From an uncultured Psychrobacter sp. (lineage in GTDB: Bacteria > Pseudomonadota > Gammaproteobacteria > Pseudomonadales > Moraxellaceae), in NCBI RefSeq assembly GCF_947500265.1, contig NZ_CANMRN010000003.1, forward strand, positions 248,001 through 312,000: DNA of 64,000 bases. The letters run 5' to 3'. Both the position numbers and the translations under genes were made by a program. The notes beneath the pieces are model-generated. The model saw only the letters and a program-made list of their open reading frames with translations, had not been told where the DNA came from and searched no databases. Shown here one piece after another: positions 4,254 to 5,539 of the stretch (positions within the stretch are counted from its first letter, which is position 1; each line of letters begins with the position of its first letter).

Positions 4254-4625
4254 TTACTCAGCAGTGGCTGCAGCTGTATCTTCAGTAGCCGCCATATCAG
4301 CGCTGTCAGTAGGAGCAGCGGCTGTATCCGTACTATCGGTAGCTGCTGCTTCTGCAGTATCAGCGTCAGCCGTTCCTGCTTCAGCAGTAGCTGTACCGTC
4401 AGCTTCTGTACCCGCTGCATCAGCCGCTGGCATTGGTGCTGTCTCTGGGAATTCCATTTCTTCTGCTTCAGGCGCGTTTTCGCGTGCCAACTCAGCCGCT
4501 TCATCCACCATATCGATAGCCAGCACTTCTTCATGCTCTTCGCCGCCACTACAAGCGCTCACGTTCACACCTAAAGCTACGATAAGTGCCATGCTTAATG
4601 CCGTGTTAAATACTGTTTTTTTCAT
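4254..4625 (-). CDS. alanine-rich acidic lipoprotein, unknown function
   Basis: The start at 4625 gives MKKTVFNTALSMALIVALG and a lipobox VSAC, preceded by GAGG. The mature part (about 90 residues) is almost entirely Ala, Thr, Asp, Glu and Ser with no recognisable domain. It looks disordered and strongly acidic. Lipobox context and linker composition resemble the adjacent cytochrome c lipoprotein, so the two may share ancestry for their N-terminal halves, with this one lacking the haem domain. The gap to the cytochrome gene is about 125 bp on the same strand. Function is unknown; the low complexity could make database matches misleading. Confidence 0.7.
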   Translation of the reverse strand: MKKTVFNTALSMALIVALGVNVSACSGGEEHEEVLAIDMVDEAAELARENAPEAEEMEFPETAPMPAADAAGTEADGTATAEAGTADADTAEAAATDSTDTAAAPTDSADMAATEDTAAATAE

Positions 4626-4671
4626 TCCAACATCCTCAATAAAATACACACAAAACGGTTCATAGGCTTAC

Positions 4672-5000
4672 TAGGGTCTATTGAACATTCAAATGTGGTG
4701 CTGGCAGTCACTATTTTTTAGACAATATGCAGTGAAATTGTTGAAGCCTAGTCATTCTAGGTTAAACCATTTCGCCATATATTGATAAAAAAGAGTACTG
4801 CCCTCCACTCGAGCACAGCTCTTGCCTTGCGAACGGGCAAAGCAGTGCTTTGCTCGATCCGTTCTCAAGGCTGATGCTAAAATTACCCCAACCGTTGTTG
4901 AAAACCTAGCTAAGGTCTCGACATTATCGTCGGTTTTCGCCTAGTTTGGGGTAACTTTAGCCATCAGCAGCCCTAATATTTGAATGTTCAATAGACCCTA
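4672..5000. mobile_element. MITE-like element, 22-bp perfect terminal inverted repeats
   Basis: The segment starting GGGTCTATTGAACATTC (4674) is repeated as an exact inverted copy ending at 4998. The perfect arms are 4673-4694 and 4978-4999, and both ends are flanked by TA, as expected for elements that duplicate a TA target. Inside is a second inverted pair (4870-4891 with 4946-4968) built on TTACCCCAA, plus smaller hairpins at 4830-4868. No ORF fits inside, so it would need a transposase from elsewhere. IS630/Tc1-type ancestry is suggested by the TA flanks but not proven. Confidence 0.7.
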
Positions 5001-5162
5001 TAATATGGGAATTATCATAGCATAAACTCCAATCAAACCGTTATAGACGGTAGGGGTTTTTTATTGATAAAGCGTTGTATATATGTCGAATTCATAGTTT
5101 GAGAGCCAAATTCAAATAGCTATCTAATTGAACACCTTATCAGCAATAAATGCTTAAAATCA

Positions 5163-5191
5163 TTGACTTTGTTGGTATTTTTTATTAAAAT
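5163..5191 (+). promoter_or_regulatory. sigma-70 type promoter of rpsU
   Basis: TTGACT (5163-5168) and TAAAAT (5186-5191) are separated by 17 bp, close to the sigma-70 consensus, about 130 bp upstream of rpsU. The leader of over 100 nt leaves room for translational control. Confidence 0.65.
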
Positions 5192-5323
5192 ACCTGCCCT
5201 TGCGCTAATGCGTGAGAATTGTCCTAGTTTGAGCTGATGCCTGTAATCTTGAGATATTACGGCTAAATACTAATACACAGCCAAACTAATGCCCTTATAT
5301 CTCATCCTAATCGAGGAGTCTTC

Positions 5324-5539
5324 ATGCCTGCAGTTAAGGTTAAAGAAAACGAACCAGTTGATATCGCTATCCGTCGTTTCAAACGTGCTTGTGAAAAAGC
5401 TGGTGTATTATCAGACGTACGTAAGCGTGAGTTTTATGAAAAACCAACGCAAGTACGTAAGCGTAAAAAAGCTGCTGCCGTAAAGCGTTATAAGAAGAAG
5501 TTACAACGCGAAACTATTCGTACCACTCGTATGTACTAA
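5324..5539 (+). CDS. rpsU: 30S ribosomal protein bS21
   Basis: A 71-aa, very basic protein starting [20 protein letters not shown] and ending in a Lys/Arg-rich tail, which is the bS21 signature. It binds the 30S platform near the anti-Shine-Dalgarno end of 16S rRNA and helps initiation. The ATG follows GAGGAG. A near-consensus promoter lies upstream and a strong terminator follows, so it is probably monocistronic. It is unlinked from dnaG-rpoD, its usual downstream genes in enterics. Confidence 0.98.

Follow-up and report, generated by a model that had tools for sequence, protein, structure and literature searches.

The element described here lies within a 64,000 nucleotide stretch (the window) of the genome of an uncultured Psychrobacter sp., designated G000, between two genes that diverge from one another. 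On its right is rpsU, which encodes ribosomal protein S21 (5324..5539, + strand; from the ORF list and Pfam). A promoter-like site before rpsU, TTGACT-17-TAAAAT (5163..5191, + strand), was found by consensus scan and assigned by position; two such sites were found in the region and 2.4 are expected from shuffles, so their number is not above chance. On the left is an ORF on the - strand (4254..4649; from the ORF list), with an internal ATG as its likely start and a lipoprotein-like beginning as judged by eye (MKKTVFNTALSMALIVALGVNVSACSG). A scan of 4257-4628 found no Pfam family for it. The block from 5001 to about 5065, immediately right of the element, is kept in aligned relatives. It holds the stem ACCGTTATAGACGGT and a T run, and may serve the divergent gene as promoter or terminator.

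The element itself occupies positions 4672-5000 and has the layout TA, 325 bp, TA. Its inverted ends (4672-4694 and 4978-5000) match at 23 of 23 positions, being 23 nt long and 100% complementary with the outer TA of each side counted in. Each end comprises one copy of a duplicated TA target (4672..4673 and 4999..5000), recognised from relatives that have one TA at empty sites and two at filled sites, and a terminal inverted repeat, GGGTCTATTGAACATTCAAAT on the left (4674..4694, + strand; from end comparison and copies across the genus) and its counterpart on the right (4978..4998, - strand; from end comparison). Within the window the 21-nt end is present twice; 100 shuffles gave none. Between the ends are, in order, hairpin A (4703..4802, + strand, the left limit being approximate; RNA fold z = -6.0), a central 63 bp (4805..4867) and hairpin B (4870..4968, + strand; RNA fold z = -5.6). 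Folded as DNA, the whole strand reaches -82.9 kcal/mol (z = -11.3), with none of 100 shuffles as low. A search of Rfam with 4600-5350 gave three matches up to E 10, which were sub-threshold microRNA matches far below the gathering scores.

An earlier sequence-only reading had described perfect inverted ends of 22 bp flanked by TA, the absence of an ORF, and a second inverted pair nested inside at 4870-4891 and 4946-4968. The ends are indeed perfect and TA-flanked, at 23 nt rather than 22, and no ORF of at least 60 aa lies within the element according to the ORF list of the window. The nested pair exists in an imperfect form (4876-4891 and 4946-4961, 16 nt at 94%). It is part of hairpin B, and the MITE body that includes it is sequence common to the aligned full-length copies; the nested unit that is mobile is instead the central 63 bp. 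Neither this module nor the first long hairpin featured in that reading.

The rpsU gene was matched in all 60 of the genus genomes, and the DNA of the 30 best was compared, with G000 among them. The site is filled in 8, empty in 19 and not called in 3 (G013, G018 and G025), where it is too changed; a site was called empty where no more than 7 bases separate the flanks. The 329-bp form is present at the TA in G000, G003 and G029, and a 269-bp form at the same TA in G009, G032, G061, G069 and G068. Eighteen of the 30 genomes (8 filled and 10 empty) were aligned. The nearest empty sites (G024, G027, G010 and G072) read CTTAC-TA-TAATATG and the filled sites read CTTAC-TA-GGG...CCC-TA-TAATATG. Since the nearest empty sites hold one TA, the TA was duplicated on insertion. 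These orthologous sites show the 329-bp stretch to be a MITE whose insertion at a TA next to rpsU led to duplication of that TA. A single-TA site in a relative had been put forward as the proof of transposition, and it has been found; together with copies elsewhere and an IS with similar ends, both described below, it upholds the identification as a MITE made from the window alone.

The strong hairpins could also be read as a fixed regulatory structure of rpsU or of the divergent gene's leader that is not mobile at all. A terminator-like stem within the element points towards the divergent ORF (4799..4815, - strand; found by consensus scan only, with 2 such sites in the region and 0.4 expected), as such a structure might. 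The orthologous single-TA empty sites in close relatives and the many copies elsewhere refute this as the origin of the element, and it is scarcely conceivable.

It had been suggested that the element, being upstream of the rpsU promoter, may affect it. It is upstream, at a distance of 162 bp from the promoter-like site with the conserved block between, and that site is not disturbed. The leader of the divergent gene is the likelier to be affected by the element, as the element's end is 46 bp upstream of the likely ATG. Because the block at 5001-5065 is kept in aligned relatives, the element has probably parted it from the divergent gene.

A second full copy of the MITE is present in G000 (C1:106786). 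This copy is 269 bp and is without the central 63 bp, so that both sizes of the MITE, 269 or 329 bp including both TAs, are found in this genome. Ends with 2 or fewer mismatches were identified in 39 of the 60 genus genomes, with 97 in the richest, and the reversed end pattern, used as a control, was found in none of the 60. A DNA search with the whole element gave matches in 36 of 57 genomes (its own counted) and in 2 of 22 genera, counts that take in genomes matching the module alone. Four plasmid records were matched, each solely in or adjoining the module part. Further copies, which the sequence-only reading had looked to, are therefore present both in its own genome and across the genus. 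At one locus (L117, about 709-908; G073:C6 from 93208), eight direct MITE ends are spaced at 25 bp, with one inverted end about 250 bp further on.

The MITE is most likely moved in trans, because there is no ORF of at least 60 aa in it. Starting from a solitary MITE-like end, an IS of about 860 bp was identified in G012, the ends of which, TAGGGTCTGTTGAACATTCATAA and TAGGGCGTGTTGAACATTGG, flank a transposase ORF with matches to Pfam DDE_Tnp_1 and DUF4096. We call this IS a member of the IS5 family; it may belong to the IS427 subgroup. At E 1e-40, 30 of 60 genomes have relatives of the transposase, and G000 itself has an open copy of 262 aa (C5:229449-230198). The IS ends were examined at 21 of 30 fetched loci, comprising 19 close relatives and 2 more distant ones. 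The end TAGGG[TC][CG]TGTTGAACATT, with 2 or fewer mismatches, is on both sides in 15 of the 19 close relatives, 13 of them without mismatch; the other 4 have it on one side, and the 2 distant loci have different ends.

The sequence-only reading had also pointed to an IS with matching ends. An IS with similar ends and a TA target exists, yet the match is not exact. Compared with the MITE ends in the window, the IS ends of G000 have 3 mismatches over the first 18 positions; compared with the commoner MITE end they have 2. At locus L126 one end is the commoner MITE end over 16 bases and the other differs at 2-3 positions, as do the IS ends in G000. A MITE-type end on both sides was found at none of the 21 IS loci examined. 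From the ends and the target, the IS5-like element with the open 262-aa transposase in G000 is the likely driver of the MITE, which such an element with similar ends would move in trans. Single MITE-like ends in C2 of G000 (L019 and L020) were considered as ends of an IS and rejected, there being no transposase among the ORFs of at least 70 aa there.

Within the Moraxellaceae, MITEAba12 is reported to be 111-114 bp with ends GGCTTTGTTGCACAAA and a 9-bp duplication (PMC6382973). Both it and the present MITE are short, lack a transposase, have ends like those of a resident IS and duplicate their target. The present MITE differs in being 269 or 329 bp, with ends GGGTCTATTGAACATTCAAAT and a TA duplication. 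MITEAba12 was rejected as the same family.

The central 63 bp (4805-4867) is an imperfect palindrome that reads TGAGAACGG...GAGTGG on the - strand, where it was annotated on the basis of presence or absence in orthologues, its contexts and RNA folds (z = -2.7 and -3.2). Where it is present, 2-3 bp found at the centre of the empty MITE are missing. Among the 8 filled orthologues at the rpsU site, 3 have the module and 5 do not. The MITE body of G003, with the module, is identical over 266 columns to those of G009 and G032, without it. Of 40 aligned MITE bodies, 35 went into a tree after removal of a duplicate and of four partial rows; the copies were not randomly drawn. The state of the module changes 7 times on this tree, with at least 5 changes forced by well-supported branches. 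Its distribution is nonetheless clustered: shuffling gives 11.8 changes rather than 7, and 1 shuffle in 500 is as low. The ages of module and body are often at odds, the bodies of G000 and G031d being 31% apart and their modules 3% apart; in other pairs the two are in step, G026C61 and G001C110 being 9% apart in body and 8% in module.

One explanation is that the MITE originally included the central 63 bp and some copies lost it, so that there is no second mobile unit. Both forms do occur at one locus, and the module is present in each of the 9 G002/G031 subfamily copies aligned, although these were fetched by their module match. Loss would need to restore 2-3 bp, and it would have to accommodate the bodies of G000 and G031d, so much further apart than their modules. 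The module also lies without the MITE in IS3, IS630, IS256 and TnpB genes. The copies in transposase genes refute this as a complete explanation, which is very improbable. These comparisons indicate that the central 63 bp is a separate mobile palindrome within the MITE.

Matches to the module were identified in 45 of 60 genus genomes, with at most 15 per genome. An exact-pattern scan found at least 117 stretches, of which 80 loci were analysed. The named records with such matches are from Psychrobacter, Moraxella, Acinetobacter, Alkanindiges and Fluviicoccus, those of the last three genera having lower scores and remaining unsorted as to context. Further exact-pattern matches are in MAGs of Moraxellaceae and gammaproteobacteria, and in contigs filed under Streptomyces cinereus. 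All 10 of the MITE-sorted contexts among the 80 loci are in Psychrobacter records, which would place the window in this genus. In the Streptomyces cinereus JCM 3040 records (L243, L284, L289 and L290) the module is in IS3-like genes, which may be due to assembly contamination or transfer.

The contexts were merged to 167, made up of 86 from the genus genomes and three plasmid loci and 81 from named genomes. Among the 86, 74 were sorted, with 38 in IS3, 18 in IS630, 3 in IS256, 3 in TnpB and 12 in the MITE; at least three of the 12 unsorted are IS3-like by eye. Of the further 81, 37 were sorted (17 IS3, 10 TnpB, 8 MITE, 1 IS630 and 1 IS256) and 44 were not. In two of the 4 IS256 cases, the module has a different position and strand and may simply lie next to the gene. 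This sample is not random, as the copies come from a similarity list and the proteins used for sorting come partly from the same loci. The identity of the hosts is backed by Pfam for one representative each of IS630, IS256 and TnpB, and for two of IS3.

Within IS630 there are two sites. At the D site the module is directly after the second catalytic D (VMD^NARFHK), and at the E site it is directly before the catalytic E (NP^IEKKW). The E-site copies have an empty D site, and most D-site copies have an empty E site. In the TnpB of Moraxella atlantae, the module has one site ahead of the first cysteine pair and another ahead of the second, with exact empty copies, one for each site, at L219 and L224. 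The D and E residues have a catalytic role and the cysteines a zinc-binding one. In IS3 the module is found at the end of OrfA (two subgroups), close to where OrfB ends, and at GN^ before DNA, where its orientation is reversed. The IS256 site and a third TnpB site each come from one kind of copy, without an exact empty partner in this set. Nine comparisons of filled and empty sites, six by script and three by eye, have 2-3 bp lost and 62-64 gained, a net gain of 59 to 61. On this evidence, the same palindrome is recurrent at set positions in the transposase genes of unrelated IS families. Seen after the fact, these positions would appear to be conserved motifs.

Two further kinds of rearrangement were seen. 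In the IS630 copies L176 (721-782) and L171 (781-813), one module connects the left flank of the D site with sequence from around the E site, an arrangement that recombination between two modules, with loss of the intervening DNA, would produce. At the IS3 GN site, L181 and L048 have insertions at GN^FDNAPIE with module-like ends and a different inner hairpin, which are in frame in L181 and bring a stop in L048.

The age of the module was compared with that of its hosts at the IS630 D site, using L042, L043, L089, L158 and L167 (10 pairs); L166 was left out because of its high divergence. Synonymous distances between these hosts, measured across the 80 codons preceding the module, are 0.48-0.76, or 48-76% of sites, and the modules of the same pairs differ at 2-8 of 66 bases (3-12%). 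On this divergence the module is younger than its hosts at this one site. The dN/dS upstream of the site is 0.02-0.10 (10 pairs, without L166), which may mostly reflect time before the insertion and for that reason was not taken to prove the interrupted gene functional. For 12 IS3 OrfA-end copies, the median synonymous distance is 0.75 against a median module distance of 0.08, with hosts compared without gaps so that some pairs may be misaligned. L048 and L226 have a synonymous distance of 0.69 and modules that are identical over 60 bases. Module distances of 0.65-0.68 involve L103 and probably reflect a one-base length difference. The modules look recent, or replaced by conversion. Being younger than most of its hosts, the module would have reached the same place more than once.

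The effect on the reading frame depends upon the site, with about 20 codons added in frame at some and stops or a shifted frame at others. Three of the six IS630 D-site copies (L042, L043 and L089) are open in frame through the module to the usual end. In L158 and L167 stops fall within the module, and in L166 soon after it. Stops or a shift of frame are also seen in the copies at the IS630 E site and in TnpB, and in the IS3 hosts OrfB is open in some and broken in others.

Repeated arrival at the same positions would be due either to insertion that selects the site or to gene conversion among members of one family. It is possible, and we propose it tentatively, that the module is a homing-like parasite with a sequence preference for a few transposase-motif positions and for the hairpin junction of the MITE, exchanging 2-3 bp for about 63. 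The motif positions concerned are the D and E sites of IS630, those before the cysteine pairs of TnpB, and the OrfA end of the two IS3 subgroups. Homing introns and inteins occupy the same positions in homologous genes recurrently, and the reoccupation of set positions by the module is alike. Unlike them, the module at 63 bp is too short for such a ribozyme, intein or endonuclease, replaces 2-3 bp and often leaves stops. No guide-like pairing of the module with its target was found by eye. The exchange of 2-3 bp for about 63 would then follow a mechanism that matches no class known to us and that, to our knowledge, is undescribed.

The module might instead be a REP sequence, with a REP-associated tyrosine transposase (RAYT) as its mobiliser. 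It is palindromic, usually begins TGAG, and in one case is directly after a RAYT gene (L163 932-1486, also L333; NF047646, E 2.6e-53). Across 30 fetched RAYT loci, with flanks of 1.5 kb or less, the module was found at this 1, with one 10-bit partial match and none at 28. Of 60 genomes, 24 have a RAYT match and 45 a module match, and no RAYT was found at E 1e-20 in G002, G026, G004 or G062, which have 15, 10, 6 and 6 module matches. Promising at L163, RAYT as the mobiliser failed across the 30 loci and is not supported; we regard it as quite improbable. REP and the GTAG- and CGTC-tagged palindromes are reported to be 20-40 bp, high in copy number and mostly intergenic (PMC3733652). They resemble the module in being short and tagged, sometimes inside ORFs, and linked to a transposase, and differ from it in that the module has at most 15 matches per genome, is mostly in mobile genes and is absent at 28 of 30 RAYT loci.

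Recurrence at the same site could also be explained by a single rare insertion at each site, followed by gene conversion among multicopy MITEs or between members of one IS family. The hosts are often multicopy and their flanks within a family offer homology, so conversion between MITE copies or within an IS family could move the module in and out. This sits poorly with the OrfA-end site being shared by two IS3 subgroups, in which about 80% of OrfA residues differ (over 45 ungapped codons, and possibly inflated by indels). Strong synonymous divergence across the 80 codons preceding the module likewise separates the IS630 D-site hosts from one another. Gene conversion as the source of the recurrence is rather unlikely.

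A likeness in coding sequence is to the Rickettsia palindromic elements, described as about 150 bp and as in-frame insertions in unrelated metabolic genes (PMC10969869). The module, too, is a small palindrome within protein genes, in frame in some copies. It differs in that it is 63 bp, most of its sorted copies are in transposase genes or the MITE, and not all are in frame. Searches of open-access literature pointed to neither this MITE nor this module, nor to a described MITE family in Psychrobacter.

The MITE is well supported by the filled and empty sites, and the module would seem to resemble the palindromes of protein-coding genes, lying among its sorted copies mostly in the genes of mobile elements. 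As a whole, the account, comparative throughout, of a TA-inserted MITE with a likely IS5-like driver and a second mobile 63-bp palindrome that recurs in transposase genes is highly probable. One locus records the insertion of the MITE cleanly, in empty, filled and filled-plus-module states, with a candidate driver in the same genome. If the module does home to transposase motifs, its exchange of 2-3 bp for about 63 would need a new insertion mechanism. It would then be a very small parasite living on other mobile elements, and may switch these hosts off or alter them.
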